Positions 8,469-32,740 of a stretch of 35,609 nt of DNA are shown piece by piece; position 1 is the stretch's first letter, and every line of letters begins with the position of its first letter. Source of the DNA: Opitutia bacterium (GTDB lineage: Bacteria; Verrucomicrobiota; Verrucomicrobiia; Opitutales; Opitutaceae); contig CANIJN010000023.1 in the NCBI GenBank assembly GCA_947467625.1, positions 1 to 35,609 on the forward strand, read 5' to 3'. Position numbers and translations under genes: made by a program. The notes beneath the pieces were generated by a model. That model searched no databases and had not been told where the DNA came from. It worked only from the letters and a program-made list of their open reading frames with translations.

Positions 8469-8489
8469 GCCGCGAAGGTGCCCCGGCAA

Positions 8490-8518
8490 GGTTAACGGCT
8501 CACGAGCGCTCACATTAA
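8490..8518 (-). promoter_or_regulatory. Shared two-box motif TTAATG-N17-TTAACC
   Basis: Read on the minus strand: TTAATG (8518-8513), 17 nt, TTAACC (8495-8490), then 21 nt to the ATG at 8468. The same boxes with identical 17- and 21-nt spacings precede the genes starting at 19615 and 25245. A -35/-10 pair or a regulator-bound direct repeat would both fit. An 8-bp palindrome (GAGCGCTC, 8504-8511) lies between the boxes here. Confidence 0.6.
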
Positions 8519-8552
8519 TATTCGTTCATCTTCAGCGCCGTCGCCGCGCCGC

Positions 8553-11540: not shown

Positions 11541-11560
11541 AGCTCAGGATATCCAACCAT

Positions 11561-11566
11561 TGTTAA
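11561..11566 (-). promoter_or_regulatory. Half-site TTAACA before multicopper oxidase gene
   Basis: TTAACA on the minus strand ends 20 nt before the ATG at 11540, nearly the 21-nt spacing seen for the downstream box of the shared motif. The position expected for the upstream box (11589-11584) reads CGTTTT, so the second box is not recognisable here. Confidence 0.3.
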
Positions 11567-11630
11567 GGAATGATGAACGGTGGAAAACGATCCGTTCAAA
11601 TTTCCCGCTTTCCGACCTCATTCCCAACCA

Positions 11631-13755
11631 TCAGGGCAGCAGATAAAATTCCACGAGAACAGTGCCCGTGGTGACGTTTTTTCCGCTCACCTGGACGGTG
11701 TAGTTGGCGCCGGCAGGAAGCGTGATCAGCACGGCGGCGTCGCGGCTGCCGGTTTCAAAAGGAAATGCGCCGACCGCGTTGACGGCAGCCGTAAGGGACG
11801 CGACTGGCGAAGGGAGCGCTGTCGCGGCCGCGTATTGCGAACTCTGCGCCACACCCCAGTCATAATTGCTCGCGACGATATCGCTGCCGCGGAAAACCGT
11901 GAGAACCGGATCCGCCAGCGAGCCGGTCACACCAAACTTCCCCAGCGCCGGGCCGGCCACCCGAATGAGCAATCCCGCCGCTCCGTTACCGCCCACCGCG
12001 ACACCCGGGATCAAGATCGACGCGCGGTGCCGACGTAGGCACGGGCCGAAGCGTTCACGAGGCGCGCGGAACCGGCGTCGGACTCGACATCGAAAATCTA
12101 CACGAGGGCAACCCCACTGCCGTCGTCGACCGAACGGGTTTGTGCCGTGTAGGCCGCAGGCGGGAAAGTGAGAACCAGCGCCGCGTCGCGGCTGCCGGCC
12201 GGCAGCGCAAAGGCTCCGCCGGCCGTCATCGCCATCGCATCGGAGCTGGCCGAATTGTCGTTCGTCTGCACGAGCGTCTGCCCCTGGCGCAGTTCTAAGA
12301 TTGGATCGGCGAGAACGCCGACGACGCCAAAGCCCGCCAACGCAGGGCCGACCCCTCGCACGACGAGGCGCTTCGCGCCTCCTGCGACGACGAAGCCCAG
12401 AATCGGCGTGCCGGCCGCCCCGCCGACAGCCGCGCGGGCCGAGAGGTTCGTCACCCGCGCGTCGCCCTTCGCCGCGGCACTCAAGGAGCGGTCAAGGGTG
12501 TCCGTGAGCGCCGCGCGCAAACGGCTCGCCGCAGCGGGCTGCGTCGCCGCGACGTTGCTCGTCTCCGAAGGATCGCCGACGACGTCGTAGAGCTCGTGGG
12601 TGTTTCCCCGCTCAACCAGTTTCCAACGGCCCTCGAATTGCGCGCTGTCTGTGGTCGATACGACGGTGAACGAACGATCTACGGACGGTGCGGAACCGCG
12701 CAGGATACTCCAAAGGTTGAGGCCGTCCAACGGCAGACGGCTCCGCGGAGCGACGCCCACGCCGGCGGCCACCGTCGGAAACAAATCCTGCACGGAGACA
12801 AACTGATCGCTCGTCGCTCCGGCGCGGATGGCGCCCGGCCAACGCAGAATCGCCGGGACGCGCACGCCGCCCTCGTAGACGCCGCTCTTGGCGCCGCGCA
12901 GCGGGATGTTGCGCGCAACAGAATTGCCGGGACCACCATTGTCGGAAATGAAAATCACCAGAGTGTCGGCGTCCAACCGCTGAGCCGTGAGCTCGGCAAG
13001 GATTTTTCCGATGCCGGCGTCGAGACTCTCCAGCATCGCTGCATACGTTAGCGCATCACCGGAGAGCGCCGGATAATTGGCGAGCAGTTCGGGCGGGGCC
13101 TCGAGCGGGATGTGAGGCGCGTTGAGGGTGACCACATGAAAAAACGGTTTCGCCGGGTCGCGGGTGCGCAGCAGCCGGATCTCCTCGTCGCGGAGCAGGT
13201 CGGTCGAGTAGCCGGTTTCGTTGAGCGTCGTTCCATCGCGTTGCCAGTCGACGCGCGTGGTGTTTTCGCCAAAGTGGGAGTAGTAGGAAATCGCCCCGCC
13301 GAGGAAGCCGTAAAAGCGGTCGAAGCCCCGTGCGGTGGGGAGATGCGCACCCGATGAGCCGAGGTGCCATTTGCCGGTGAGGGCGGTTTGGTAACCCTCC
13401 GCGCGAAACGTCTCCGGGATGAGATGCTCGAGAACGTTGAGTCCGTCGTCCTGCGCAGAAAACACGTCGCGAATACCCAGCTGCACCGCCGACGGGCGGT
13501 GTGAAGCGAAGCGCGCGAAGGGCTGCAGAGCGGAGCGGCGTAGTAACGCATCAGTTCGGTCCCTTCCTGTCGCAGTCGGTCGAGATTCAGCATGCGAGCC
13601 GGTCAACCGCGCCACGGCACGTCGGCCCATCCGCGATCGTCGGCGACAAGGATCAGGACGTTGGGCGCCACCGCACGCAGTGAAAGCGGCACAAACCCGG
13701 CGACGACCAAGACGATCGCAACGGTCAGGCCCAGGCTCCGGTGCGGTTTGCTCAC
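11631..13755 (-). pseudogene. Sulfatase with C-terminal repeat pair, broken by two stops and two frameshifts
   Basis: The gene would start at the GTG ending at 13755, overlapping the previous stop (GTGA). It encodes a signal/anchor segment and a sulfatase opening (APNVLILVADDRGWAD) with both metal-binding Asp residues, then an in-frame TGA at 13603-13605. The same frame continues with LDRLRQEG and the formylglycine motif CSPSR, but right after it (about 13490-13500) a frameshift removes the expected LTGR. The rest of the domain (TALTGKWHLGSSG, ISDNGGPGN, GVYEGGVRVP) is read in another frame. In the repeat pair a GAG-type codon is TAG at 12098-12100 (expected VEIFD), and one base is missing near 12025 (expected VGTGASILIPG). 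The remainder ends VEFYLLP at 11631. Loss of function is very likely unless the lesions are sequencing errors. Confidence 0.85.
11634..12467 (-). repeat. Tandem protein-repeat pair (copies 5-6 of 10), in sulfatase pseudogene
   Basis: The first unit (VTNLSARAAVGGAAGTP through DGSGVALV) and the second (NASARAYVGT ... LVEFYLLP) are separated by the TAG at 12098 and the one-base frameshift near 12025. The second unit is more divergent (SNYDWG for TNDNW). Confidence 0.75.
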
Positions 13756-16301
13756 GGCACTTCGTAAATTTCGACCAGCGCCACGCCGGTCGTGTTGCCG
13801 CCCCCGCTCACCTGCGCGGTGTAGGTGCCCGGGTCCAGCGTGACGAGCAGCGCGGAATCGCGGGAATTCGCCGGCAGCGTAAAAGCCCCCACCTGCGCAC
13901 TCGCGAGGCCCAGCTGCGCGGCGTTCGCCAAGGTGAGCCAGTTGTCGTTTTGCTGGATCGCGGCGGTCGAGCCCTCGCGGAAGAGCGCAAGCTGTGGATC
14001 GGCGAGCACGCCCGTCACGCCGAATTGTGCGAGGCTCGGCCCGATCGCGCGGATGAGCAGTTGCTTCGGCGCGTCGCCTTGGATCGCGAAGCCCGCGATC
14101 AAGATCGAGCCGCCGGTGCCAACGTTCGTGCGGGCGGACATGTTTACGAGGCGCGCGGAGGTCGTGGTGGTCGTGGCATCGTAGGCCTCCATGAGCGCGA
14201 TGCCGGGCGCGGCGGCCTTGCCGGTGACGACCGCGGAGTAGCTGCCCGGCGTGAGGTTGGCGACGAGCGCGGCATCGAGGGACGTAGCGCCGAGCGCGAA
14301 GGCACCGACGCGCGTGGTGACGGCGACAGTCTGATTGACGTTGGTGCCGCCAAACCAGTTGTCATTGGTTGCGACGGTGGAGTTGTTGGCATCGACGAGC
14401 GTCAGCACGGGATCAGGCAGCACGCCCGTCACGCCAAAGCCGGTGAGCGACGGACCGACGCCGCGCAACAACAGCGACACCGGGTCGCCCTGACCTACGA
14501 CGCAGCCGACGATCAGTGTGTCGCTGCCCGTGCCGGCGGTGGAGCGCACGGAGAGGTTTCCCAGCCGGCTTGCGCCAATGGTGAGCGTCGCGGCGGCAGA
14601 GGTTAAGGAGCCCGCCGAGGTCGAGACGACCACCGTGTAGCTTCCGGCATCGGCCGCCTGCGCGCGCGCGATTCCGAGCACGGCCGTGATGGCGCCGGGG
14701 ATGTCGGTGCCGTTGTGCCTCCACTGGTAGGTGAGCGGGAGCGAACTCGTCGCACTCACGGAAAACGTCACCGGCGTGCCCACCGACACAGCCTGAGAGC
14801 GCGGTTGCGCTGCGATCACCGGCGTCGCGCTTTGCTCAGCCGCGGTGCCAACCGTGTAGGAGAACGCCACCGTGCCGTTGACGCGCTCAGTGCCGGGCCG
14901 TTCGTCCGCCGGCAAATAGGTGCGGACATATTCCACTTTCACTCCCGCTGGTGCGACCGTGACGCGGGTATAACCGCTGTCCGGGAAGCGCTCGCCGGTT
15001 GCGTAGGCATCGGAATTGAAAAGCGAATAGTTGGGATTCGCGGGCGAACCAAGTGATTGATAAGTCACTCCATCCAGTTGCTGGCGCACCCAGATATGAT
15101 CGTGGCCCTGGAAGAAGATCGTGACCTTGTTGGCGACAAAGAGTTGGTGGATGGGGAGCGCCCAACCGGCCCGGTTCTGCGCAAAGCTAGGGGTGCCATT
15201 GTTGTTTTGCCCGCCCCACTCGAACTTCAACGCAACGTCGATACCCCCGCGGCCGGTGCCGTTCACATGGTGGGCGAAGACAAATTTGTATTTCGCTTTG
15301 CTCTGCTCGAGCGTGGCCTTGAGCCAGTCGTATTGGGCTTTGCCGTGGGTGATCGCCCACTGGTCCGCGGTCTTGGCCCCGCCGTAAAAATCGTTGTCCA
15401 CCACCACGGGCGAACCCCAATAGGGATCAATGGTGACGAAGAGCGCATCGCCCCACTCCCAAGCATAGTAGTTCCGCAACAGTCCGATATGCTCAATGGT
15501 CTCGGTGTTACCGGAGTAGAAATCGTCCGGCGCGGGCTGGGCGTAGTAGAGATTGCGGGCGTTTTGGGCCCAGACGGCGACGTTATTAGGCGTCCCATCG
15601 AGAAGATAGCGCGCCGCCTGCTCGTGGTTGCCGTTGACGAGGAAAATCGGGGCTATACGGCCAAGTATGCCGAGATACGGTCGCTGAATGGCGTAACGCG
15701 CCTCGACCTGGGGTTGCGTGACCGCCCGGGGATTCGCTTGGTTGATCGTATCGACGCTGAAGTCGTCACCGCTGGTCAGATAGAAATCGGGCCGGTTGCC
15801 CGCCACGGTCGTCATCGTCCGCGTATAGAATGCGGCGTTGAACTGCGTGTTGGCCCGCTCGGGGTGCGAGTCCCCCTGCACACCGAACACAAACGTGCTG
15901 CCCGGCGCCCGCTGCGTCATGAACGAATACTCCGGGCTCGCGTCGTAGTCTGTCGCGGTCGCCGCGCGAAATCGTATGCGATAATAGTAGCGCGCATTCG
16001 TCACGAGGCCGGCGATTGTCACCTCCCGCGGGACATTCGCCGCCAGCGCAACCGGCGGGGTCTGGCCAGTGTAGGCTCCGGGTTGCAGGCCAAACTCTAG
16101 ATAGAGCGAGTGCGCCACAGGTGCTAAGACGTTGGCCACGATGGATTGGTTGGTTGGCCGGCCCAACACGAGCGTGCCCGGAAAATCCGCCGCGCTCGCC
16201 GGCAGGGTCAGGCCCGCCCCCAGAACGACCGCACCCCAAACCGCCCACGCCCGCACCACGGCGCGTAAGCCGTTGAACGTATAATTTATTTTCGATACCA
16301 T
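13752..16301 (-). CDS. Secreted metallophosphoesterase (purple acid phosphatase-like) with Ig domain and C-terminal repeat pair
   Basis: This is an 849-residue exported protein. A signal peptide (VWGAVVLGAGLTLPASA) is followed by a fibronectin III-like domain of the purple acid phosphatase N-terminal type (about 45-130). The calcineurin-like phosphoesterase domain carries all five metal motifs: GDSH (~144), GDD (~178), GNHE (~225), the paired His of FAHHV (~343) and GHDH (~402). An Ig-like domain (about 490-570) and two shared repeats (about 572-849, ending VEIYEVP) complete it. It is expected to hydrolyse phosphomonoesters or diesters outside the cytoplasm; the substrate is unknown. A good Shine-Dalgarno (CGGAGG, 11 nt before the ATG) begins right after the sigma factor stop, so the two genes are probably co-transcribed. 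Confidence 0.9.
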   Translation of the reverse strand: MVSKINYTFNGLRAVVRAWAVWGAVVLGAGLTLPASAADFPGTLVLGRPTNQSIVANVLAPVAHSLYLEFGLQPGAYTGQTPPVALAANVPREVTIAGLVTNARYYYRIRFRAATATDYDASPEYSFMTQRAPGSTFVFGVQGDSHPERANTQFNAAFYTRTMTTVAGNRPDFYLTSGDDFSVDTINQANPRAVTQPQVEARYAIQRPYLGILGRIAPIFLVNGNHEQAARYLLDGTPNNVAVWAQNARNLYYAQPAPDDFYSGNTETIEHIGLLRNYYAWEWGDALFVTIDPYWGSPVVVDNDFYGGAKTADQWAITHGKAQYDWLKATLEQSKAKYKFVFAHHVNGTGRGGIDVALKFEWGGQNNNGTPSFAQNRAGWALPIHQLFVANKVTIFFQGHDHIWVRQQLDGVTYQSLGSPANPNYSLFNSDAYATGERFPDSGYTRVTVAPAGVKVEYVRTYLPADERPGTERVNGTVAFSYTVGTAAEQSATPVIAAQPRSQAVSVGTPVTFSVSATSSLPLTYQWRHNGTDIPGAITAVLGIARAQAADAGSYTVVVSTSAGSLTSAAATLTIGASRLGNLSVRSTAGTGSDTLIVGCVVGQGDPVSLLLRGVGPSLTGFGVTGVLPDPVLTLVDANNSTVATNDNWFGGTNVNQTVAVTTRVGAFALGATSLDAALVANLTPGSYSAVVTGKAAAPGIALMEAYDATTTTTSARLVNMSARTNVGTGGSILIAGFAIQGDAPKQLLIRAIGPSLAQFGVTGVLADPQLALFREGSTAAIQQNDNWLTLANAAQLGLASAQVGAFTLPANSRDSALLVTLDPGTYTAQVSGGGNTTGVALVEIYEVP
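13755..14590 (-). repeat. Tandem protein-repeat pair (copies 7-8 of 10), C-terminal in metallophosphoesterase gene
   Basis: The first unit opens RLGNLSVRSTAGTGSD, the second RLVNMSARTNVGTGGS. Both keep R.(V/I)GPSL..FGVTGVL.DP, NDNW, and PG.Y(S/T)A and end with (M/V)E.Y(D/E). The first copy is the most divergent of the set (IVGCVVGQGD in place of IPGFVI.G). Confidence 0.8.
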
Positions 16302-16320
16302 GATTGGAATTACCTCCGAT

Positions 16321-16992
16321 TCACGCCGCCCGCGACGACCGCAGGCGCTCAGGCGACGCGGTCATGCATTGCCGCAGAATCTTGCGAGCGCGGTTCAACC
16401 GAATTTTCACTGTTCCGAGCGACAGTTGCATCTCAGCCGCAATCGCGCGGTAGCTCGCGCCCACCACGATCTGCTCCACGATCGCGCGGTCAGCGGGGGC
16501 CAGGTAGGTGAGGGCTCCCTCCAGCGATTCAAAAATCTCGCGCACCGCGATCGTGCTGTCGGGCGCCGCCATATTCATCAGCAGCTCATCGCCCGCGACG
16601 CTACTCGGTCGGCAGCGCAGGCGGCGGCGGAAATCCAGCGCGGCGTTGCGCGCCAGCGTAAAAAGCCAGGGCTCAAAGGTGATCGGCTCCCGTAGTCGAC
16701 TGATCTGGCGGCAAAGCTTGATCATCACCATCTGCACCACGTCTTCCACCATGTCCGGTTGATCCAGCATCGGACGCACAAAGGCCGCGAGGCGGTTACG
16801 ATAGCGCATGATCAGCTCGGACTGCGCTGCCATGTCGCCGTCCTTCGCCCGTCGCACAATGATCAACAAGCCTTCGCGCTCCGCCTCGGTGGGACGCGGG
16901 TAGCACGCACGCCGCCCGCCGCCCATCGGGGCAGGAACACCCGACAAAATACGGCCCGGAGCGCGACCAAGTGACTCAGTTGGCAGGGACAA
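16321..16992 (-). CDS. ECF-type RNA polymerase sigma factor
   Basis: This is a sigma-70 family protein of up to 223 residues with only regions 2 and 4. Region 2 (about 45-120) includes the DMVEDVVQMVMIKLC helix and FEPWLFTLARNAALDFRRR; region 4 (about 160-210) includes LAPADRAIVEQIVV and the helix-turn-helix YRAIAAEMQLSLGTVKIRLNRAR. It would direct polymerase to a dedicated promoter set. The TTG at 16992 overlaps the end of the upstream phosphoesterase gene; an ATG at 16926 would shorten it by 22 residues without touching region 2, so the start is open. No anti-sigma gene is recognisable next to it. Its position between two metallophosphoesterase genes suggests control of this block. Confidence 0.88.
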   Translation of the reverse strand: MSLPTESLGRAPGRILSGVPAPMGGGRRACYPRPTEAEREGLLIIVRRAKDGDMAAQSELIMRYRNRLAAFVRPMLDQPDMVEDVVQMVMIKLCRQISRLREPITFEPWLFTLARNAALDFRRRLRCRPSSVAGDELLMNMAAPDSTIAVREIFESLEGALTYLAPADRAIVEQIVVGASYRAIAAEMQLSLGTVKIRLNRARKILRQCMTASPERLRSSRAA

Positions 16993-19615
16993 TGGAGTAG
17001 GTGTGGGAGATGGTGCGGTTCTTCAGCGTCGCCGTCTCCTGGGTGGGCAAGGCCGCGCGCACATATTCGACCTTGGTGTTGTCCGGCGAGACCGTGACCC
17101 GGAGATGTCCCGAGTTGGGCAGGATCGTGCCCTGCACATATTTTCCGTCGCCCGCGCTCGCCGTGGAGAAATTGGCCGTGCCGGGTTGCGGGCACTCCTG
17201 ATACACAATCCCATCGAGTTGTTGGTAACCGTAAAAGTGATCGTGGCCGTGAAAGACGGCACTCACCTTGTGCGCGACCAGCAGTGCGTGAATCGGCATG
17301 TCCCAACCCGGGCGCTTCGCAGTGAAGCCCTCGGTGTCGTCTGCATTCTTTCCGCCCCATTCGTAGCGGTGCGCGGTCTCGACTCCGCCGCGCGCTGACT
17401 CGATGCCGCCGACCAGGTGGTGGAGGAACAGAAATTTGAACTTCGCCCGGCTATTCTGGAGCGTCGTCTTGAGCCAATCGTATTGGGCCTTGCCGAGCGA
17501 CCAGCGCCAATTGTCGGCCGGATTGGAATTCGGATTGCTGAGCGTGTTGTTGAAGGGATCGAGCACCACGAAGAGCGCGTCGCCCCACTCATACGCGTAG
17601 TAATTTTCGAGCAGTTCGTTCTTCCCAAATACGAACCGGCTCTCCGCGCTTCCGGAGTAAAATGCCCCGTCTTGCACCGGAATCGCGAAGTAGCGCTTGC
17701 GGGCCATGATGTCCCAACTGGCCAAATTGTTGTCTTTCGCGACCGAGCGATCCGCGTCGTAGACGTAGCGGTATTCGGCCTCGTGATTCCCGAGCGTGAA
17801 CATAAACGGCACCGAGTGGCAGAATTCGGCAAAATTGTTCCGCAACGTCACTGCGCGAAACTCAATCAAACCGTAGTTCACCGTCAGCCCTGGCAGGATC
17901 GTGGGCATCTTGTCGGTCATGAAAATATCGCCTAGGTCGACGTGAAAGTCAGGGTTGTCGGCGCGGATATTTCGCATCGCGAGCGTGAAGAGCGGCTGAC
18001 TCGTGACTTCGTCGAGATGCGGGTCGGCAGTGATCGTAAACGTGAACGCCGTGCCGCGTGGACGCGCAGTCTGGAAACTCCGTTCGCCGCGGGCGCGAAA
18101 TACAGCCTCGCCCAGCGCGCGATAGCGCACCCGATAGAAATAGCGACGATTGGCGGACAGTGCCGGCTGTCCCTCTGCCGCCTGGATTTTCACCTCAAAC
18201 GGCATGCCCGCCGCATAACTGGCGATAGGCGTCCGGCCCGAGTAGGCCCCCGACGCCGCGCCAAATTCCACATAGGCTTCTACCGCCTGGTTGGTCTCGA
18301 GATTGAGCGTCACGCCGCGATCCGTGGGAATGCCGAGAAATTCCGGCGCCGTGAATCCGAGATTGGGTGTGACATCGGAAATTTTGAAATCCCACAACGT
18401 CGCGGCGACCACGTAACTTCCGGTCGCGGAACTGGCCGTGGCGCCGACACTATTCGTGGCGGCCACTGTGTAACTGACCGTGGTTCCGGCCGGCAGCACC
18501 GGAATCGCCGCGCCGAACACGCCGTCCCCCGCCGCACCGTCGCCATCGAGGCCATCGTCGCGCATGGCGAGCGTCACCGGCGTATTTCCAGCTGACGCGC
18601 CAACCGTATAACTCAAGCGGAGTTCCGTCACCGTGCCGCCGGGATCAGGCTGACCTTTCGCCGTCACAAACACATTGTCCGCGTAGTTCGGAGCCGTCGG
18701 CGCCCTGGCGACTTCTACGACGGCAAATCCCGTCGGAGCGGGCATCGGCGGCACCACGTAGAGTTCCACGAGGGCCGTGCCAGTCGTGTTGCCGACTCCA
18801 CTGATTACCGCCGAGTATGAGCCCGGCGAAAGTGTGACGAGCAACGCGGCATCGCGACTCCCGGCCGGCAAAGTAAAAGCGCCCACCGCGGCAGCGGCCG
18901 TGGCGACCTCGGTGGCATTGGCCGCCGTCGACCAGTTGTCATTCGTCGCTAACGCGGTCGGACCACTGAAGAGTGTGATCGTGGGGTCGCCCAAGGCATC
19001 GGGAACGCCAAATGTTCCCAACGTCGGGCCCACGACGCGCACCAGCAACCGCAAGGTGCCCGTGCCGACGACAACAAAGCCCGGGATCAGCACGCTGGTG
19101 CCCGTGCCGACGAAGGCCCGGGTGGAGGCATTCACAATCGAGGGCCCGGAACCGGCGGCACCGTCGTAGACCTCCACGAGCGCGATACCGCTACCGCCAT
19201 CGGTCGCCGTTACTGGCGCGGAATAAGAGCCCGCACCGAGATTCGCCACGAGCGCGGCATCCTTGCTCCCGGCCGTCAGTGCGAAGCCGCCCGCCGCATT
19301 CATGACCGCAGCATCAGCGGCGTTCCAATTGTCGTTGGTCGCACTCGTCGCCGCATCACGGACAAGACTGAGACGCGGATCGGCCAGCACGCCACTGACG
19401 CCAAATCCTCCCAAAGTCGGGCCGATCGCGCGAATCACGATGGGTTTCGCCCCGGGACCGCTCAGCACAAAACCCGGGATCGGTGTGCCAGCCGCGCCTC
19501 CGACGGCCGCGCGCGTGGCGATGTTCACGAGGCGCGCAGTGCCTTCGTTCGCAGCCCGGCCCAACCCGCCCGCGGCGAGAAATATTAGAAGAAAGAAAAC
19601 GGCATGCCCGCACAT
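16976..19615 (-). CDS. Secreted metallophosphoesterase with N-terminal repeat pair
   Basis: This is an 879-residue exported protein. After a signal peptide (HAVFFLLIFLAAGGLGRA) come two shared repeats (about 24-290). An Ig-like/invasin-type segment follows (about 295-400, with DDGLDGDGAAGDGVFGA), then a fibronectin III-like domain (about 415-520) and a calcineurin-like phosphoesterase domain. Its metal motifs are ADPH (~532), GDIF (~560), GNHE (~610), LHHLV (~733) and GHDHF (~791). The catalytic part resembles the phosphoesterase at 20488 (FHVDLGDIFMTDK, FLFLHHLVGG, DGIVYQ..PQPG), yet domain order is reversed compared with the one at 13752: the repeats are N-terminal here. It is the first gene after a copy of the shared upstream motif and overlaps the sigma factor gene by 17 bp. 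Confidence 0.9.
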   Translation of the reverse strand: MCGHAVFFLLIFLAAGGLGRAANEGTARLVNIATRAAVGGAAGTPIPGFVLSGPGAKPIVIRAIGPTLGGFGVSGVLADPRLSLVRDAATSATNDNWNAADAAVMNAAGGFALTAGSKDAALVANLGAGSYSAPVTATDGGSGIALVEVYDGAAGSGPSIVNASTRAFVGTGTSVLIPGFVVVGTGTLRLLVRVVGPTLGTFGVPDALGDPTITLFSGPTALATNDNWSTAANATEVATAAAAVGAFTLPAGSRDAALLVTLSPGSYSAVISGVGNTTGTALVELYVVPPMPAPTGFAVVEVARAPTAPNYADNVFVTAKGQPDPGGTVTELRLSYTVGASAGNTPVTLAMRDDGLDGDGAAGDGVFGAAIPVLPAGTTVSYTVAATNSVGATASSATGSYVVAATLWDFKISDVTPNLGFTAPEFLGIPTDRGVTLNLETNQAVEAYVEFGAASGAYSGRTPIASYAAGMPFEVKIQAAEGQPALSANRRYFYRVRYRALGEAVFRARGERSFQTARPRGTAFTFTITADPHLDEVTSQPLFTLAMRNIRADNPDFHVDLGDIFMTDKMPTILPGLTVNYGLIEFRAVTLRNNFAEFCHSVPFMFTLGNHEAEYRYVYDADRSVAKDNNLASWDIMARKRYFAIPVQDGAFYSGSAESRFVFGKNELLENYYAYEWGDALFVVLDPFNNTLSNPNSNPADNWRWSLGKAQYDWLKTTLQNSRAKFKFLFLHHLVGGIESARGGVETAHRYEWGGKNADDTEGFTAKRPGWDMPIHALLVAHKVSAVFHGHDHFYGYQQLDGIVYQECPQPGTANFSTASAGDGKYVQGTILPNSGHLRVTVSPDNTKVEYVRAALPTQETATLKNRTISHTYSIVPAN
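18750..19545 (-). repeat. Tandem protein-repeat pair (copies 9-10 of 10), N-terminal in metallophosphoesterase gene
   Basis: The first unit opens RLVNIATRAAVGGAAGTPIP, the second IVNASTRAFVGTGTS. Both contain GFV..G.G, R.(I/V)GPTLG.FGV, TNDNW, GS(K/R)DAAL and YSA, and the pair ends ALVELYVVP. This is close to the consensus of the whole set. Confidence 0.85.
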
Positions 19616-19704: not shown

Positions 19705-20469
19705 TCATTTCGCAGGCGCTCCGCTCACATCAAGTTCGGGCTTCGTATTCCAGCGCTGCTTCCACTCCGGCTTTTCGACGCGCGTGCGAAAAATGATCGT
19801 ATTATCGAGGTCGAGATCGTTACTCCAGATGAACTTCGCGCCCTTGAAATCGGCGGCGTAAAACGGCTCTTTCGGATTCACTCGCTCCTCGGAGAACTCC
19901 TTGGCGTTGGCCCACGTGCTGTCGTCGAAATCAACCGCCCACCACTTTTCCGGAATGGGCGTATGCTCCACCCGAGGATTCTTCACATCACCATTAAGAG
20001 GTCCCTTGAAGAAATTTTTTGCCTTCCACGTGGCGTTCGAGACCGAGCCGTCGCCGAACTTGATGATAAATCCGCCGTCGCCGAGGTGGTCGCCGTATTC
20101 GAGGCCGGTCTTCGGATCAGCATTGTCCTTGGCCATCACGGCGATCGTCATCGGATACTCCGGCAGGATATCAACGGAGATCACATTATGCGGCGTGAAG
20201 GGAATCGAATCCACGGCCGTCAGCCTTCCATTGATATAAAGCACGAACCAATTGTCCGCGTAGACGTTCACTTTGATCGTGTCCGCCATGGTGGGTTTGA
20301 TGAGTCCTTTACTGTCACCGCCACCCTTTTTTCCGCCGCCACCCTTTTTTTTCCCGCCCGGAGGACCGTCCTGCGCGATCGCGCCGAGTAACAACGCACC
20401 GGCCACCGCCACGAGGGAAACCAACCGGAATGTATTCGCGAAACGACGAGGCGAGGGAGAAGCACTCAT
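19705..20469 (-). CDS. Secreted protein of unknown function with Gly/Lys-rich linker
   Basis: This is a 254-residue protein that I do not recognise. An N-terminal signal peptide (FRLVSLVAVAGALLLGAIA) is followed by a low-complexity stretch of Gly and Lys (residues ~35-52, e.g. PPGGKKKGGGGKKGGG). The remaining ~200 residues look like a beta-rich, possibly jelly-roll, domain with many aromatic residues (YADNWFVLYINGR, WWAVDFDDSTW, FIWSNDLDLDNTIIFRTRV), reminiscent of galactose-binding-like folds; that is inference from pattern only. It lies 18 bp after the metallophosphoesterase stop and ends the operon that starts at 25245. Related Gly/Lys-rich segments occur in the three genes before it. Confidence 0.75.
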   Translation of the reverse strand: MSASPSPRRFANTFRLVSLVAVAGALLLGAIAQDGPPGGKKKGGGGKKGGGDSKGLIKPTMADTIKVNVYADNWFVLYINGRLTAVDSIPFTPHNVISVDILPEYPMTIAVMAKDNADPKTGLEYGDHLGDGGFIIKFGDGSVSNATWKAKNFFKGPLNGDVKNPRVEHTPIPEKWWAVDFDDSTWANAKEFSEERVNPKEPFYAADFKGAKFIWSNDLDLDNTIIFRTRVEKPEWKQRWNTKPELDVSGAPAK

Positions 20470-20487
20470 GTTGGGTGAAGGGAGAAA

Positions 20488-22029
20488 TTATTTCGCCGGC
20501 GCGACCGTGTAGCGATGGCTAACAGCACCGGTTTTCCTCGTGCCGTTTTCCGCATTCTCCTGGTAGGCGCGGACATATTCCACGAGCGCCTGCTGCGCCG
20601 ACACGTTCACGCGGAGAATCCCCGAGGCGCCGGCGATCACCCCGCTTTTGTAGCCGTAGTCCCCGGCACTGCGGATGTTGTCGAAACGGCTATGGCCCGG
20701 CTGCGGCACGAGTTGATAGACGATTCCGTCGCGCTCCTGCTGCGCGTAGAGATGGTCGTGACCGTGAAACACCACCACGCCGCCGCCGCGTCGCAGGAGG
20801 AGTCGATGAATCGGCGCGTCCCATCCGGGCCGCTTTTGCGCGAACGACTCACGCCCATCAAGATCGCACCCACCCCATTCGAAAAACGCCGCCGCTTCCG
20901 AACCCCCTCTCCCTTCGCGGGTCTCTCCACCGACGAGATGATGTAGAAATACAAAAGTGAATTTCGCGCGGCTCGCCGCCAACGTCTTCCGCAGCCACTC
21001 GTAGTGCTCACGCCCGAGGGTGCGCCCCCAATTGTCGCCACCGCGATTGCGGTCGTGGCTATACCAATAGGGATCGAGCGCGATGAAGAGCCCGTCTCCC
21101 CACTCGAACGCATAGTAGTTCTGCAGCAGTCCCGCTTTCGGATGCGGTGTGGCGTTGCCCGAATAGAACGCATTCGGCTCCGGATTGGGAAAGTATTTTT
21201 TTCGCTGTGCGTTCGACCAGAGCGCCATCGCGTCGCCGCCACCTTTGCCGGGCTGCTCACCATCATGGTTTCCCAACACGAGGAAGACCGGCACATCAGC
21301 CCCGACCAGACCGAAATAGTAGCGCTGGGCGATGTAGTGCGGGAGCGCGTCGCGATAGTCCGTGCGCTTGTCCGTCATGAAGGTATCACCGAGATCGACG
21401 TGAAAATCCGCTCGCGCCGCGAGGACGTTGGCGAGCGACTTCTTGTAGATTTCCGGATCGGTTCCGAAATCGAGATGCGAGTCGGCCTGCACCGTAAACA
21501 CGAACTGACTCCCGGGTGGCCGCGCCGTGGTGAAGGATCCTTCCGCGCTCACCTTCAAGTCTCCGCGCCCTTCCGCACGCGATTGAAATTGATAGCTGTA
21601 CCGGGTGTTCGGACGCAAACCGGTGAGCTCCACCTCGACGGGAGAGTCCTTGTTAAATCTTCGCAGCGGCGTCCGCGTGGTCAACGCGCTCACCTCGCTG
21701 CCGAAGGCCACCAGCCCCTCGACTCCTTCGTAGCTGAGAATACTCAACGTCACGGAGTCTGCCGTGGGGCGACCCAGGATCAGATCAACCGCGTGCGCCG
21801 GCACCTCTGTCCGAAACGCCAGTGTCGGCAGACGGCCTTCACCTTTGCCACCACTCCGTTTTCCCTCCGCCTCCGGACCGGGGCGACGCTCACCCTGGCG
21901 CGGCGCAGCGACCCCGTCGGCCGCAAAGGCCTGCATCGTCATCAGAACGAGTGCAATCATCGTCGCCGCGAGCGCAGTCACCATCGCCATTCGCCCCACA
22001 CATTTCAGGAGAGGATCGCTCGATTTCAT
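20488..22029 (-). CDS. Secreted metallophosphoesterase with fibronectin III-like N-terminal domain
   Basis: The ATG at 22029 is preferred because it lies 19 bp after the sulfatase stop and just before the signal peptide (MVTALAATMIALVLMTMQAFA); a reading from 22104 would overlap the sulfatase by 56 bp. The product is 513 residues: a basic Gly-rich linker (about 40-65), a fibronectin III-like domain (about 75-165), and a calcineurin-like phosphoesterase domain with ADSH (~183), GDTF (~212), GNHDGE (~254), LHHLVGG (~363) and GHDHLY (~424). It is the smallest of the three paralogues and the only one without the shared repeat pair. It should act outside the cytoplasm on a phosphoester; the substrate is unknown. 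Confidence 0.9.
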   Translation of the reverse strand: MKSSDPLLKCVGRMAMVTALAATMIALVLMTMQAFAADGVAAPRQGERRPGPEAEGKRSGGKGEGRLPTLAFRTEVPAHAVDLILGRPTADSVTLSILSYEGVEGLVAFGSEVSALTTRTPLRRFNKDSPVEVELTGLRPNTRYSYQFQSRAEGRGDLKVSAEGSFTTARPPGSQFVFTVQADSHLDFGTDPEIYKKSLANVLAARADFHVDLGDTFMTDKRTDYRDALPHYIAQRYYFGLVGADVPVFLVLGNHDGEQPGKGGGDAMALWSNAQRKKYFPNPEPNAFYSGNATPHPKAGLLQNYYAFEWGDGLFIALDPYWYSHDRNRGGDNWGRTLGREHYEWLRKTLAASRAKFTFVFLHHLVGGETREGRGGSEAAAFFEWGGCDLDGRESFAQKRPGWDAPIHRLLLRRGGGVVVFHGHDHLYAQQERDGIVYQLVPQPGHSRFDNIRSAGDYGYKSGVIAGASGILRVNVSAQQALVEYVRAYQENAENGTRKTGAVSHRYTVAPAK

Positions 22030-22048
22030 GGGTGTCCAAATCGATTCG

Positions 22049-23446
22049 TCACTCGCGTTTCTTACCTTGCTTACCGCCCTTCCCTCCCCGGCGTTCATCC
22101 GCACTCGGGTCGTCTGCTTTGCTCGGATCGTAGTGGGGATTTGGCTGCGCCATCTGGGCGGTCACCGCCTTCAAATACGCTGTGAGGCGCGCGTCGAGTT
22201 CGGCCGTCTTCTCGGGCAACATCGTGGCGAGATCGCGCTCTTCCCCCGGATCTTTCTCCAGGTCGAAGAGCCGCTGCGTTTTCTTTTCGTAGCTGCGCAC
22301 GAGCTTGTAGCCGCCGAGCAAAATCGCCGTCGCTGGACCGCCGTTGCCCAAGTCGTAGTGAGGAAAATGAAAGACCAGTTCCTCACGCGAGCGGCTGACT
22401 GCGCCGCGGCCGAGCGAATCGCGCAGCACCGCCGCCAGACTTCCACCCTCGACCGCCGCAGGCAACGCGGTCGTGACGCCGGCGAGTTCCGCGATCGTCG
22501 GCAACACATCACACGCCGTCACCGGCACGCGCGAACACACATTCCCCGCGATCGCCGGTCCCCGGATGAGAAAGGGCACGCGCAGACCGCCTTCGGTCAC
22601 CGCACCTTTTCCGCCGGCGAGGGGAGCATTGCCATTTCTGCCCTGCCCGCCGTGGTCTGCCGTGTAAATGACATAGGTCTTCCCAGTCAGACCCAAGGTG
22701 TCGAGCGCACCGAGCAACGTCATCACCGTCTTGTCGATCTCATCCGCATCCGCTCGAACCGTGTCTCGGTCGCGCCCGCCACCGGCGCCTTCCTTGCGCT
22801 CCTGATTCGGATAGTGGGAGAGCTGTAAATAGAACGGCTTTCCCGCCTTCTGTGCACGCGTCATGAACGCGATGCCGCGCTCGGTCATGCCGTAGGCCTG
22901 CTTCGGATTCGGACTCGCGACATTGTCCGGCCCACCGTTGTTCGTTGCTCCGTCGCTTTCGTCAAAACCGTGTCGCGCCGGATCCGTCCGGCCCACGTGC
23001 CATTTTCCAAAATGCGCCGTCGTATAGCCCGCTCCCTTGAGGATCTCCGCAACCGTCGTTACCGCCGTCGGCATTTCCAACACGGGCTCCGGCGGAATCA
23101 GCGCCGTGCGTACCGGTCCCCCTTCGCGCCCGATCCCGACATAAGTCATGCGCAGCGCCGCCGGACTGATGCCGGTAAACAGCGCCGCGCGCGACGGCGT
23201 GCACCGCGGTGACAACGCGTAGCCATACGCGAATCGCATGCCTTCGCGCGCTAGGCGCTCGATCGCGGGAGTCTTAAATATCGCGCTCTTCGAAGCCGGC
23301 AGCCGATCGTCCATCATCACCGAGGTATGCGGCCACCCCTGCGCCTCAGCCATGATGACGACGAAATTCGGGCTGGCGTCCGCGTCCGACCCCAGCGCCC
23401 TCAGACCCAAACCGAAAATCAGTAATGTTAGGGCAAAAGACCTCAT
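22049..23446 (-). CDS. Sulfatase-family protein with altered metal-site residues
   Basis: This is a 465-residue exported protein of the alkaline phosphatase/sulfatase superfamily. A signal peptide covers residues ~1-19. The formylglycine motif is C82-T-P-S-R, followed by AALFTG. GKWHVG (about 145) and TADHGGQG with APLAGGKGAVTEGGLRVPF (about 260-290) match sulfatase core regions. The usual N-terminal 'ADD.GW' metal motif is instead M-A-E34-A35-Q-G-W, so one of two Ca-binding Asp residues has become Glu and the other Ala. It may therefore be inactive, use a different metal arrangement, or belong to a divergent subfamily. The C-terminus is Gly/Lys-rich. The start overlaps the YHYH-PEBP stop by 4 bp (ATGA). 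Confidence 0.85.
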   Translation of the reverse strand: MRSFALTLLIFGLGLRALGSDADASPNFVVIMAEAQGWPHTSVMMDDRLPASKSAIFKTPAIERLAREGMRFAYGYALSPRCTPSRAALFTGISPAALRMTYVGIGREGGPVRTALIPPEPVLEMPTAVTTVAEILKGAGYTTAHFGKWHVGRTDPARHGFDESDGATNNGGPDNVASPNPKQAYGMTERGIAFMTRAQKAGKPFYLQLSHYPNQERKEGAGGGRDRDTVRADADEIDKTVMTLLGALDTLGLTGKTYVIYTADHGGQGRNGNAPLAGGKGAVTEGGLRVPFLIRGPAIAGNVCSRVPVTACDVLPTIAELAGVTTALPAAVEGGSLAAVLRDSLGRGAVSRSREELVFHFPHYDLGNGGPATAILLGGYKLVRSYEKKTQRLFDLEKDPGEERDLATMLPEKTAELDARLTAYLKAVTAQMAQPNPHYDPSKADDPSADERRGGKGGKQGKKRE

Positions 23447-25245
23447 GTGGTTCCTTTGCGTTTCGTTTTGCCGCCTTTTTCGTCCCCTCGACCCACGCCT
23501 TCGCCCGCGCCAGCCGGACGCGTGTAAACGACCTTGAGCTCCGCACTGTCGAGGATGACGTCTTTCATCGCGGCCAGCAGCACGTCGCGATTTACCTCTG
23601 TCGCTGTGACCGTAACCTGCACCGGAGCCGAAAGGGCATACGCCGTTAAAATATAAGTCTTCTCACCGGGTCCTTGCGAATGCGGCGGCGCATAACCGGC
23701 GCGGCGCGTGACGCTATTATTACCGAGCGTCCCCACGCCGTGCACATCCTTCGGTAGTCCGCTCACGTCTGCGGGGATATTGTAGAGCGTCCAATACCAC
23801 TTCGTTTTTCCCTCGGGATCGAAGTGGTGCATGATCACCGCGAAACTCTTCGTGCCCGCCGGCGCACCACTCCATTCCAACGGCGGCGAAATACTCGCTC
23901 CGTCGCCTGTGAATTCCACGGGCAGCATTCCACCGGTCGCCACCGCCGCACTCCTCAACACGAAATTTCCCGTGCGCTTCGGCTCGTAGGTTTGCGTCGT
24001 CACCGCGCCATCGCCGCCGCCACCCGGACGTGCCTCGCCACGCTCTGGCGGCGGACCGCTCTTGCGCTCTCGCCCGCCACCGCCGCCGCCCTTTTTTCCA
24101 TCGCGTGGCGGCCCACCGCCACCACCACCGCCACCTCCTGTGCGATAGGTTTCCTCCCGCGTCGTACCGTCGGCACCGACGAAGCGAAACTTCCATACGC
24201 CCTCGCTCACCGGCGCATAATTCACCGAGGCTACCTTGCCGTTCACCGTGTAGCTCAGGGTCACCGGCGTCTGGCCCGGGATTCCCTCCAGGCCGCTGAT
24301 GTTCGCCCCGCGCAAGGCAGTGAGCGCCGGCCTCACGCCCATCGCACGAGGCTGCGGATCGACCTGTCCTTCTTTTTCCATGACGACACCGTGAAAGCCA
24401 CCGTTCACATACGGATACTTCGTCGAGCCATGATAGTGATAACCGAGCGCGGCCGTTTCGTGGCCGTTGTAGCTGTCCAATTGCGTGGGCACCGCACCAT
24501 TTGGCTCCGTCACGCCATAGATCGGGTAACCATCCAGCGCATACGCGATCGGCTTACCCGCGCCGACCACGCTCTGCAGGTGGAACGGCGCCGCATGATA
24601 GTGGTAGTCATCCGCGCGTCCGCAGTGCCCGCCCCACTCGTCGAGTTCACCGATTTCCTGCGAAACTTCGCCCCGATTGTTCTGCGGATTAAAAATCGGA
24701 ATACCATTCGCCGCCAAAGCAATCGCGCCTCGCAGGAACCGTCCCTTGATCGACACCGGTGTCGTCGCCACGACCGGATGCAGCGGAAGCTGCCACGCAT
24801 TTTTTCCCGTGTAAGACTGGGGCAAAGGCACCTGCTGCTGCCACGCCGTGATCCCCACCATCATCCGATGCGCCGGGAGTCCGTTCGATTCTACAAACAG
24901 AAACCGCTCGTCCCATCGCACGCGCACTGCCGGAGCAAAGGCCGCGAAAATTCCCGCTGCGCCCGGCGTGCCCGCCTCTCCACCGGCCGTCGTCAATGCC
25001 GCCCGTTTCTCCGTCCGCACCTGCGCGATCCTCAAGGGCCCTGCCCGCTTCGGCGTCTCTCGCCCCGCGGGCGTTTGCGTCGAGGCCCCGCGTATCGTCG
25101 CCGCCTGCTCGGCCGCCAACGCCTGCGCCGCCATGCGCGCGAGCTCATCGTGGGCCGTCTCGCCCGTGAAGTGCGCCCGCGCCACGCCGCCCAACGAGAG
25201 GGTTGCCAACGCCACGAGGCCGAGCAGAGCGGGGTGGTCTGTCAT
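23443..25245 (-). CDS. Secreted YHYH domain-PEBP (YbhB/YbcL) fusion protein
   Basis: The ATG at 25245 places the signal peptide (ALLGLVALATLSLGGVARA) at the N-terminus and follows the shared upstream motif by 21 nt; a reading from 25281 would run into that motif. The product is 600 residues. A YHYH domain (about 105-310) has GGHCGRADDYHYH and GYHYHGS, very similar to the gene at 5598. A Gly/Lys/Arg/Pro-rich linker (about 370-425) follows. The C-terminal ~150 residues are a phosphatidylethanolamine-binding-protein-like domain (PPLEWSGAPAGTKSFAVIMH, YWTLYNIPADV, GY.PPH..G..TYILTAYAL). PEBP-like proteins bind small anionic or phosphorylated ligands in some cases; the role here is unknown. It is the first gene of a four-gene operon. 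Confidence 0.88.
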   Translation of the reverse strand: MTDHPALLGLVALATLSLGGVARAHFTGETAHDELARMAAQALAAEQAATIRGASTQTPAGRETPKRAGPLRIAQVRTEKRAALTTAGGEAGTPGAAGIFAAFAPAVRVRWDERFLFVESNGLPAHRMMVGITAWQQQVPLPQSYTGKNAWQLPLHPVVATTPVSIKGRFLRGAIALAANGIPIFNPQNNRGEVSQEIGELDEWGGHCGRADDYHYHAAPFHLQSVVGAGKPIAYALDGYPIYGVTEPNGAVPTQLDSYNGHETAALGYHYHGSTKYPYVNGGFHGVVMEKEGQVDPQPRAMGVRPALTALRGANISGLEGIPGQTPVTLSYTVNGKVASVNYAPVSEGVWKFRFVGADGTTREETYRTGGGGGGGGGPPRDGKKGGGGGGRERKSGPPPERGEARPGGGGDGAVTTQTYEPKRTGNFVLRSAAVATGGMLPVEFTGDGASISPPLEWSGAPAGTKSFAVIMHHFDPEGKTKWYWTLYNIPADVSGLPKDVHGVGTLGNNSVTRRAGYAPPHSQGPGEKTYILTAYALSAPVQVTVTATEVNRDVLLAAMKDVILDSAELKVVYTRPAGAGEGVGRGDEKGGKTKRKGTT

Positions 25246-25266: not shown

Positions 25267-25295
25267 CATTAACCGCCCCACCGCATTCTCATTAA
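25267..25295 (-). promoter_or_regulatory. Shared two-box motif TTAATG-N17-TTAATG
   Basis: On the minus strand: TTAATG (25295-25290), 17 nt, TTAATG (25272-25267), then 21 nt to the ATG at 25245. Spacings are identical to the copies before 8468 and 19615, and the sequence after the second box (TTCGCGGG) is shared with the 19615 copy. It sits in the 108-bp divergent region with the response regulator gene. Confidence 0.62.
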
Positions 25296-25353: not shown

Positions 25354-26046
25354 GTGAAAATTCTTTTGGTCGAAGATGACCCCAAACTCGCCGGGCTCGT
25401 GACCAAGGGTCTCACCGCTCGCGGCTTTATCGTCGACCACGCCGATAATGGCGACGACGGCTTCGTACTCGCGACCACCCGTAACTACGACGCCATCGTC
25501 CTCGATGTCATGCTGCCCGGTCGCGACGGCCTCAGCATCCTCCGTCAGCTCCGCGCTAAATGCATGAGCGTCCCCGTCGTCCTCGTCACCGCCCGCAGCG
25601 CCCTCGACGAACGCCTCGATGGCCTCAACCTCGGAGCCGACGATTATCTCACCAAACCGTTTTACGTCGAAGAGCTGATCGCGCGCCTCCACGCCGTCCT
25701 CCGCAGAGCCTCCGGTCACCAAGCGAGTATTCTCAACCACGGCGCACTCTCCGTAAACCTCCTCACCCGCGAGGTCCGCTGCGCCTCCGCTCCAGTCGAA
25801 CTCACCGCCCGCGAGTTCGCCCTCCTCACCTACTTACTCCGTTCCCCCGGCCAGACGTTCACCCGCGCCCAAATTTGCGAGCACGTGTGGAACTACCACT
25901 TCGACCCCGGCACCAACTTGGTCGATGTCTACGTCCAACACGTCCGGAAAAAACTCGGCGACTTCGGCCCCACCCTGATCGAGACCGTCCGCGGCGTCGG
26001 CTACCGCGTGCGGCCCGAAGCCACGCCCGCGCCCGGCAAGCCATGA
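25354..26046 (+). CDS. OmpR/PhoB-family response regulator
   Basis: This is a 230-residue two-component regulator starting at GTG. The receiver domain has the acidic pair E7-D8-D9, phosphoacceptor D51 (IVLDVMLPG), T79 (VLVTAR) and K101 (YLTKPF). The C-terminal winged-helix DNA-binding domain has ELTAREFALLTYLLRSPGQ, the recognition region (NLVDVYVQHVRKKL) and the terminal IETVRGVGYRV. Overall pattern is that of the CusR/CopR/QseB group. It overlaps the kinase gene by 4 bp (ATGA) and is divergent from the secreted-protein operon, which is its most obvious target. Confidence 0.95.
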   Translation: MKILLVEDDPKLAGLVTKGLTARGFIVDHADNGDDGFVLATTRNYDAIVLDVMLPGRDGLSILRQLRAKCMSVPVVLVTARSALDERLDGLNLGADDYLTKPFYVEELIARLHAVLRRASGHQASILNHGALSVNLLTREVRCASAPVELTAREFALLTYLLRSPGQTFTRAQICEHVWNYHFDPGTNLVDVYVQHVRKKLGDFGPTLIETVRGVGYRVRPEATPAPGKP

Positions 26047-27524
26047 GATCGTTTCGGCTCCAGCTCGCGTTACTGTCCGGCGCCTTCGCCGCCGTGCTCT
26101 TGCTCGCGGCGGGCGCCTACGCGTGGCGGCTCACGACAAGCTTCAACCTCGACCGCCTTGATCGTGAGCTGCGCAACATCGGCGCAGCCAACCTCGAGCG
26201 GGTCGTCGGCGACGAACATTGGCACCGCGTCGAGAGCGCCCTGCGTTTCGTCTCCGGCGCCGATCGTCCTCCCGGTTTCGCCCTCTGGGTGAAAAACTAC
26301 GACCGCGAGCTCTACCGCTCACCTCACTGGCCCACGAAGATCTTTCCCGAGTCACTGCCCCGGCCGACCGATCTCGAAACCGGTCCCACACCGTCGGTCC
26401 GCCCGCCGCCCCCTCCCCGCCAGGGCGAACCGCTGTCGCCACGCAACCCGCCCCTGCCCCGCAAGGTCCCGATATTTCTCACGCTGCCGTCCGACGACCA
26501 CCAATGGCGCGTCGCCGTCATGGGCACGCCCTACACCCAACTCGTCGTCGTCGCCAACATCGACGGTTTCAACGCCGACCTCACCGCCCTGCGCCGCGCG
26601 TTTTTCGCCGCCCTGCCCTTCGCCCTGCTCCTCGTCGGGGGCGGCGCCTGGTTCCTCGCCGGCCGCGCGCTGCGCCCCGTGCACGTTCTCACCCAAGCTG
26701 CCGAACGCGTCACCGCCCGCGGCCTCGACCAGCGCATCACCACGCCCGGCAACGTTCGCGAATTCGAGCGCCTCGTCACCGTCTTCAACGAGATGCTAGA
26801 CCGCCTCGAAAAAGGTTTCCACCAAGCCAACCGCTTCAGCGCCGACGCCTCGCACGAGCTCAAAACGCCCCTCGCCCTTCTCCAAGCCGAGCTCGAGCAG
26901 GCCCTCGCATCCACTCCGTCGGGATCGCCGCAACAGCAGCTCTACACGAGCCTCCTCGACGAGGTTCAACGCCTCAAGGCCATCACTCAAAAGCTTCTCC
27001 TCCTCGCCCTCGCCGATTCCGGCCGTCTCGAACTTCATCGCGAGCCCACCGATCTCGCTCAGCTGCTCGCCAACGTGATCGAGGATGCCACCGCGTTCGC
27101 CCCCCACCTCGCAATCGAACACGCCATTCCCGTCCACGTCTCCGTCCTCGCCGACGCCGTTCTCCTCGAACAAGCCCTCCAAAATCTCACCAACAACGCG
27201 ATCAAGTATAACCGCGCCGAGGGTCTGATCCGCTTAACGCTTCGCCTCGAAGCCGACTCCGCGGTCGTCGCCGTCGGCAACACCGGCCCCGGCATCTCAA
27301 TCGAAAATCGACCGCACGTGTTCGAGCGTTTCTTCCGCGGCGACCGCTCCCGCGCCCGCCACGCCGCCGCGGGCGTTGGCCTCGGGCTCAGCCTTTCGCG
27401 CGAAATCATCCGCGCCCACGGCGGCGATCTCGCCCTCTGCCCGCCGCGGGCCGACGGCGACTGGACGGAGTTTGTCGTGCGTCTGCCCTGTACCGTAGCG
27501 CCCGCCAAGCGCTCCTCCGCCTGA
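26043..27524 (+). CDS. Membrane sensor histidine kinase
   Basis: This is a 493-residue sensor kinase starting at the ATG that overlaps the regulator stop. TM1 is at residues ~8-27, a periplasmic sensor of about 150 residues follows, containing several His/Trp (DEHWHRVE, SPHWP) and a Pro-rich stretch near 120-140 (PPPPPRQGE, PRNPPLPRK), and TM2 is near 190-208. Then come HAMP, the HisKA dimerisation domain with the phospho-accepting His in ADASHELKTPLALLQAE (~270), and the HATPase domain with the N box (NLTNNAIKYN ~381), NTGPGI, FERFFRGD and GLGLSLSREI. The signal it senses is unknown. Confidence 0.95.
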   Translation: MRSFRLQLALLSGAFAAVLLLAAGAYAWRLTTSFNLDRLDRELRNIGAANLERVVGDEHWHRVESALRFVSGADRPPGFALWVKNYDRELYRSPHWPTKIFPESLPRPTDLETGPTPSVRPPPPPRQGEPLSPRNPPLPRKVPIFLTLPSDDHQWRVAVMGTPYTQLVVVANIDGFNADLTALRRAFFAALPFALLLVGGGAWFLAGRALRPVHVLTQAAERVTARGLDQRITTPGNVREFERLVTVFNEMLDRLEKGFHQANRFSADASHELKTPLALLQAELEQALASTPSGSPQQQLYTSLLDEVQRLKAITQKLLLLALADSGRLELHREPTDLAQLLANVIEDATAFAPHLAIEHAIPVHVSVLADAVLLEQALQNLTNNAIKYNRAEGLIRLTLRLEADSAVVAVGNTGPGISIENRPHVFERFFRGDRSRARHAAAGVGLGLSLSREIIRAHGGDLALCPPRADGDWTEFVVRLPCTVAPAKRSSA

Positions 27525-32457: not shown

Positions 32458-32470
32458 TCATTTGGTCATC

Positions 32471-32740
32471 ATGAAAATGACCATGCACATCGACGAGGAT
32501 GTCTTGGACCGGGTGATGAAGATCACGGGAGCCAAGACCAAGACCGAGGCGGTTGAGATCGCCCTGAACGAGATGGCGCGCCGCCACAAAATGAAGGAGC
32601 TCTTCTCGGCCGGTCTCGGTCTGACCCCCGAGGAGTTGAAGAACTCCTTCGACCCCGCCTCCTACCCGGAGGAGCCCCAGCCCGTGATCCTGGTCGCCGA
32701 AGCTCAGGCACCCTATGGCCGACCTGATCCTGCCCGATAG
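32471..32740 (+). CDS. VapB-family antitoxin
   Basis: This is an 89-residue antitoxin. The N-terminal MTMHIDEDVLDRVMKITGAK followed by TKTEAVEIALNEMARRHKM is the ribbon-helix-helix-like DNA-binding region of type II VapB antitoxins; the C-terminal half is the flexible toxin-binding tail. The ATG at 32471 is chosen over a TTG at 32462, since the family motif begins here. It would bind and inhibit the VapC toxin and repress its own promoter through the two palindromes just upstream. It overlaps vapC by 26 bp. Confidence 0.85.
   Translation: MKMTMHIDEDVLDRVMKITGAKTKTEAVEIALNEMARRHKMKELFSAGLGLTPEELKNSFDPASYPEEPQPVILVAEAQAPYGRPDPAR

Follow-up and report, generated by a model that had tools for sequence, protein, structure and literature searches.

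Basic glycine-rich segments on the exported proteins of a YHYH-PEBP operon in Verrucomicrobiota: candidate tethers for sulfatases and their partners?

The extracellular endosulfatases Sulf-1 and Sulf-2 carry a basic hydrophilic domain which, according to PMC3890690, they require for recognising heparan sulfate and for localisation at the cell surface, and not for activity on small substrates. By analogy, this domain is the nearest precedent for a set of segments that we describe here in an Opitutia bacterium (Verrucomicrobiota; assembly GCA_947467625.1). The window, meaning the whole stretch of DNA analysed, spans 35,609 nucleotides (positions 1 to 35,609 of contig CANIJN010000023.1, forward strand). 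On its minus strand, from 25245 to 19705, four closely packed genes, all for exported proteins, encode in this order a YHYH-PEBP protein, a sulfatase, a metallophosphoesterase (MPE) and a protein of 254 amino acids, and each of the four products has at least one basic, Gly-rich stretch. The likeness to Sulf-1 and Sulf-2 is that an exported sulfatase bears a stretch that is basic, hydrophilic and little conserved. However, the Sulf domain is central, between the catalytic and the C-terminal part, whereas the operon has short Gly-rich tails and linkers, which are also found on partners that are not sulfatases; in the window sulfatase the only such stretch is the C-terminal tail, some 19 residues long. 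The resemblance is one of composition only, and neither homology nor membership is claimed. No paper on sulfatases with lysine-rich or polylysine tails was found in the open-licence literature, which is weak evidence of novelty, and in the same literature the YHYH domain appears in phage papers, one of which also names Verrucomicrobia. What are these segments doing? Do they bind a polyanion, the cell envelope or each other, the three reasons put forward in a first-pass annotation of this DNA? Among these, polyanion binding is favoured. More precisely, the segments may be flexible polybasic tethers on co-regulated exported enzymes, whose substrate would be an anionic polysaccharide, probably a sulfated one, an explanation that we believe about as strongly as we doubt it.

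The genes, and the segments that they encode, are the following.

23443..25245, minus strand: exported YHYH-PEBP protein (Pfam YHYH PF14240, 2.4e-11; PEBP PF01161, 1.5e-22); the likely start, judged from the translation, is the ATG at 25245, in a frame open from a GTG at 25281
22049..23446, minus strand: exported sulfatase (Pfam Sulfatase PF00884, 2.6e-37; CTPSR active-site motif)
20488..22029, minus strand: exported metallophosphoesterase (Pfam Metallophos PF00149, 3.5e-8); likely ATG start at 22029
19705..20469, minus strand: exported protein of 254 amino acids with a CBM67-like domain, assigned by fold comparison, behind a basic linker
23989..24135, minus strand: Gly/Arg/Lys-rich linker from the YHYH to the PEBP domain (segment score 17; 0/300 shuffles)
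23446..23517, minus strand: basic Gly/Lys C-terminal tail of YHYH-PEBP, at the place where fused relatives have the linker to their CBM67-like domain
22052..22108, minus strand: basic Gly/Lys/Arg C-terminal tail of the sulfatase (segment rule and shuffles)
21820..21921, minus strand: basic Gly-rich linker after the MPE signal peptide (segment rule and shuffles)
20296..20373, minus strand: linker rich in Gly and Lys that follows the signal peptide in the CBM67-like protein (0/300 shuffles)

All five stretches were thus confirmed where the first-pass annotation had placed them, at domain boundaries and at protein tails. Pooled, they comprise 152 residues, of which 36% are Gly, 13% Lys and 10% Arg. 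The sampled genome background is 8.1% Gly, 3.7% Lys and 7.1% Arg, so that Lys is more enriched in the segments than Arg. A stretch of 20 residues was scored as a segment if it had 4 or more Gly, 4 or more Lys/Arg and 10 or more of these three residues together, a net charge of +2 or higher and no more than 2 hydrophobic residues. By this rule all four operon proteins score, compared with 2/174 exported-like proteins in 800 kb of sampled genome; within the window no further called protein scores. One of the two scoring exported-like proteins has a Pro/Gly/Lys insertion and the other is marginal; the bearer of the insertion (locus L062, 2262-3641, same genome) looks beta-propeller-like by eye. 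In the sample, 20 of the 432 other called frames score as well; a good many of these seem to be wrong frames. Genes were called throughout with a simple open-reading-frame picker and a simple signal-peptide rule rather than a trained program, and some control matches have the same appearance. When the residues of each protein were shuffled, the segments of YHYH-PEBP and of the 254-residue protein were never matched (0/300 each) and are therefore beyond chance. An 18-base DNA repeat, in 2.3 copies, lies within the part of the 254-residue protein gene that encodes the linker. As a control, paralogues of the MPE yielded 13 called genes from 16 matches. Of the 12 that do not belong to the operon, a single one bears a borderline segment, and 2 more have basic N-termini, perhaps from wrong frames.

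Are the segments kept in relatives? An alignment of YHYH proteins led to 80 related loci, the majority labelled Verrucomicrobia and a few carrying other phyla in their record titles, and the closest named relatives by YHYH are Opitutae. Five loci were dropped, leaving 75 with a usable YHYH gene. A segment was counted in these relatives if either of two rules applied, unless the Gly/Lys/Arg rule alone is stated. Segments were present in 63/75 YHYH proteins, in 45/51 sulfatases of the same gene run, in 16/30 MPEs and in 7/10 stand-alone proteins of the 254-residue type, compared with 4/70 other exported proteins in the gene runs and 23/152 exported proteins outside them. Sulfatases outside the gene runs of these loci had a segment in 8 of 15 cases. 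With the Gly/Lys/Arg rule alone the corresponding counts were 53/75, 41/51, 15/30 and 6/10, and those of the controls 3/70 in the runs and 8/152 outside. Where YHYH and sulfatase occur together, both have a segment in 36 of 42 loci; where the MPE is also present, all three do in 13 of 23. The 51 operon sulfatases are every sulfatase match shorter than 700 amino acids in a gene run, and the C-x-P/A-S/T-R motif is present in 40 of them. The related loci share kinship, which cluster counts address: of 16 sulfatase clusters at 60% identity, 12 have a segment in at least half of their members, as compared with 8/12 clusters with a segment at 50% identity, 34/42 for YHYH at 80% identity and 5/11 for the MPEs.

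The segments recur at corresponding places in relatives, including the YHYH linker in many of the 75 loci. For 25 of the 51 operon sulfatases a conserved end motif allowed the tail to be anchored, and all 25 tails are net positive, with a mean of +5.2. What is kept across related operons is the place of the segment and its positive charge, not its sequence; sequence and length change fast, with insertions and deletions even within a genus. In one relative with a guanine-plus-cytosine (GC) content of 58%, the Gly/Lys tails give way to Arg/Asn/Asp tails which are still basic. GC content was considered as a driver of tail composition and gave no significant correlation over the 25 anchored tails.

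Basic stretches are not specific to this operon, as a look at the other sulfatases makes clear. The genome has 136 sulfatase family matches, and a subset of 74 from outside the window, with complete and distinct ends in the loci fetched, was compared with other proteins. A basic hydrophilic Lys/Arg tail is present in 25 of these 74. Exported non-sulfatases have one in 2 of 124 cases (Fisher test, about 2e-10) and other proteins in 4 of 285 (about 2e-15), a comparison in which a codon-bias filter was applied to the 124 and the 285 proteins and not to the 74 sulfatases. Three other genomes gave tailed sulfatases in 14/40, 11/22 and 8/24 cases, versus 0/42 exported non-sulfatases for the three together; the 11/22 includes two sulfatases of YHYH operons, without which it is 9/20. 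The basic tail therefore recurs on sulfatases of some Verrucomicrobiota and is most constant in the YHYH operon. A FastTree tree of the sulfatases of this genome, which has long branches, shows 26 tails scattered among 75 sequences with 19 changes. A single ancestor of the tails is not supported by this raw count of changes.

How is the operon organised? The genes of the sulfatase and YHYH-PEBP overlap by 4 bases, and with the MPE start at 22029 there are 19 bases from the sulfatase stop to the MPE and 18 from the MPE to the 254-residue protein gene. The YHYH match of the window protein scores 44.4 bits, above the curated cut-off of 25, and the sulfatase has both marks of its family, the PF00884 match and the C-x-P-S-R formylglycine motif. 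Divergently from the operon lie two regulatory genes.

25354..26046, plus strand: response regulator, nearest to the heavy-metal (cztR/silR/copR) subfamily (TIGR01387, 1e-63, below its cut-off)
26067..27524, plus strand: histidine kinase, partner of the response regulator (HisKA, HATPase_c, HAMP)

From its position, this response regulator probably controls the operon, and a response regulator, a histidine kinase or both are divergent from YHYH in many related loci. The genome is of 5.6 Mb in 362 contigs, with 62.5% GC. Elsewhere in the window, at 32462-33113, a small gene pair resembles by eye a VapB/VapC-type antitoxin with a PIN toxin.

The fourth protein of the operon has no Pfam or NCBIfam match. 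Proteins of this type are found in 22 of 273 genomes of the order, and in 26 of the 75 loci relatives fuse the domain, in a single frame, C-terminal to YHYH or YHYH-PEBP, with basic segments at many of the junctions. The first-pass annotation had held the folded parts of the four proteins to be unrelated, which in view of these fusions is not wholly so. An AlphaFold2 model of the protein is confident (pLDDT 91.7). Its match to residues 166-299 of 3w5n, which we take to be the CBM67 domain of the Streptomyces avermitilis rhamnosidase SaRha78A, has a Z of 10.0, with a root-mean-square deviation of 3.3 Å over 120 residues. A Pleurotus ostreatus lectin follows with Z up to 9.6, then two further rhamnosidases (8.9 and 7.2), and all remaining matches are at or below 5.7. 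For the same model Foldseek gave E-values of 0.03-0.07 and a TM of 0.41, and a best Z in the range 7 to 8 is often obtained where no clear kinship exists. The protein is probably a CBM67-like, putative sugar-binding module, a moderate assignment at the level of the fold. No CBM67 sequence match was obtained in Pfam for the window protein, nor any related PDB sequence, and when 55 homologues were compared with Pfam the best E-value was 0.013, for one member, to Bac_rhamnosid_N. The protein is for this reason called CBM67-like and not a member of the family. Also different is its setting: the CBM67 of SaRha78A is joined to a glycosidase, whereas the domain described here stands alone or is fused to YHYH-PEBP. 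Asp24-Asn25 is invariant in the 55 homologues and by simple range offset would fall near residues 179-180 of 3w5n. The CBM67 of the S. avermitilis rhamnosidase is described in PMC4690510 as a calcium-dependent rhamnose-binding module, and PMC11512411 gives two adjacent Asp residues as calcium ligands in a CBM67-like lectin.

In a hand count of this module that left out repeat-bearing copies and one unplaced copy and kept a 5'-truncated one, 10/14 copies beside YHYH or in its operon have a segment, versus 0/6 stand-alone copies elsewhere (Fisher test, about 0.005). The copies outside YHYH operons are at loci L083, L084 and L086-L089, one of which adjoins by eye a RecN-like gene. An EF-hand-like pattern occurs in 21/75 YHYH proteins, and EF-hand-like calcium motifs were seen in the linkers of YHYH-PEBP-CBM67-like fusions of Verrucomicrobiaceae (L147, L150, L157, L175). 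The AlphaFold2 model of YHYH is poor (mean pLDDT 73.6), and no PDB structure match to it was obtained at E up to 0.001.

The remainder of the block offers a comparison within the same window.

5598..19615, minus strand: other half of the block, with YHYH-Lcl, a multicopper oxidase, a sulfatase and two MPEs; repeats, no basic segment

A repeat of about 125 residues, usually paired, occurs in six open frames of this region, one of them with a lone repeat. Two repeat-bearing frames have weak DVUA0089/FDP matches, below the family cut-off, and none of the six has a basic segment. Over all loci, in a table that includes at least two genomes twice, a segment was found in 0/18 repeat-bearing proteins versus 127/480 others (Fisher test, 0.0099). 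Relatives have a second CBM67-like copy which carries the repeat pair and lacks the basic linker, whereas copies away from YHYH have neither. The suggestion of two sub-operons with two tethering solutions is supported by this mutual exclusion and by the repeat-paired CBM67-like copy. Like the basic segments, the DVUA0089/FDP-like repeat pairs are recurrent non-catalytic additions to otherwise unrelated exported enzymes; unlike them, they are probably folded, the segments being of low complexity, and the two are not found together. A protein with the second CBM67-like copy and the repeat pair lies directly upstream of YHYH-PEBP in relatives (L076 5530-6687, L105 8240-9412). A second sulfatase frame, 12098-13630, matches only profile positions 77-297, is without the active-site motif and looks truncated or frame-disrupted. 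The multicopper oxidase (8553-11540) is CueO-like and recurs beside YHYH proteins (L107, L128, L139); together with the heavy-metal-type regulator it may indicate a step that involves metal or oxidation.

How would tethering to a polysaccharide work? Electrostatic binding to a sulfated chain would hold every enzyme close to what it acts on, YHYH-PEBP and the CBM67-like module would supply specific binding, and the divergent two-component system would probably switch the enzyme set on; in the other half of the block the folded repeat pair would stand in place of the basic segment. A polysaccharide substrate is preferred over the cell envelope because the tails single out the sulfatases among exported proteins, in this genome and in three others. 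The shared function read into these stretches by the first-pass annotation is in part supported. It came through the comparison with orthologues, since the segments are mostly kept in the sulfatases and YHYH proteins, and through that with exported proteins elsewhere, which rarely score. Both results have their limits, as the MPE segment is only half-kept and sulfatases outside the operon are often basic-tailed. Several observations weigh against tethering to a polysaccharide. The MPE segment is kept in just about half of relatives, the six stand-alone CBM67-like copies away from YHYH are bare, and in two other genomes sulfatase tails are rare and occur no more often than on exported non-sulfatases (2/21 vs 1/13; 3/16 vs 2/10, the 3/16 including one YHYH-operon sulfatase, without which it is 2/15). 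In one relative 3/30 proteins which are neither sulfatases nor exported-like are also tailed, and when only the best-scoring sulfatases of the phylum's other genomes are taken, 1/30 is tailed. Lastly, own-residue shuffles matched the window's sulfatase tail in 6/300 and its MPE linker in 9/300 cases, so that these two are moderately unusual alone; they gain weight from their company and their conservation, while the other two are striking by themselves.

Could the segments simply be flexible linkers and loose ends? This is the strongest rival: their Gly-rich hydrophilic composition would be unconstrained and expanded by short DNA repeats, and their charge would have no function. The fast change of sequence and length, with indels even within a genus, fits well with it, as do the 18-base repeat under the linker of the 254-residue protein, the two window segments that shuffling can match and the keeping of the MPE segment in only 16 of 30 MPEs. 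It is harder to reconcile with the rarity of segments on other exported proteins, 2/174 in the genome sample and 4/70 in the gene runs, and with the enrichment of Lys despite a genome of 62.5% GC. Moreover, the C-terminal tails of the sulfatases link no following domain, yet 45/51 have a segment and every anchored tail is net positive. On these grounds we doubt that plain linkers are the answer, while giving the idea real weight. Retention at the envelope, in which the segments would stick to the cell's own anionic lipopolysaccharide or capsule and stop the enzymes from diffusing away, seems to us unlikely. All four window bearers are exported, and PMC3890690 has the basic domain of HSulf also serving localisation at the cell surface; but other exported enzymes would then need tails too, and only 2/124 exported non-sulfatases of this genome, and 0/42 in three relatives, are tailed. 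It is very improbable, in our judgement, that the segments bind the operon partners to each other in an assembly or condensate of which the fusions in relatives would be the covalent form. The fusion of the CBM67-like domain to YHYH in 26/75 loci, with segments at many junctions, and the co-occurrence of YHYH and sulfatase segments in 36/42 loci would suit such a role. However, all segments are like-charged, which means that a shared polyanion would be needed in any case, and sulfatases outside the operon are basic-tailed as well.

Some Verrucomicrobiota have very large sets of sulfatases, as the 136 family matches of this genome illustrate, and there is a practical gap as to how secreted enzymes are retained on sulfated polysaccharide in soluble form. 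A basic tail would be a simple sequence rule, testable by ordinary protein work, and the operon ties this rule to the YHYH family, which is uncharacterised, and to a module that may bind sugars. It is tempting to go further and propose, tentatively and with more doubt than belief, that some Verrucomicrobiota have repeatedly given their many exported sulfatases short, interchangeable Lys/Gly tails as electrostatic tethers. The conserved, regulated operon would combine such sulfatases with a YHYH-PEBP-CBM67-like protein that bears tethers of this kind, in a polyanion-bound machinery, so far undescribed, that acts on sulfated polysaccharide.

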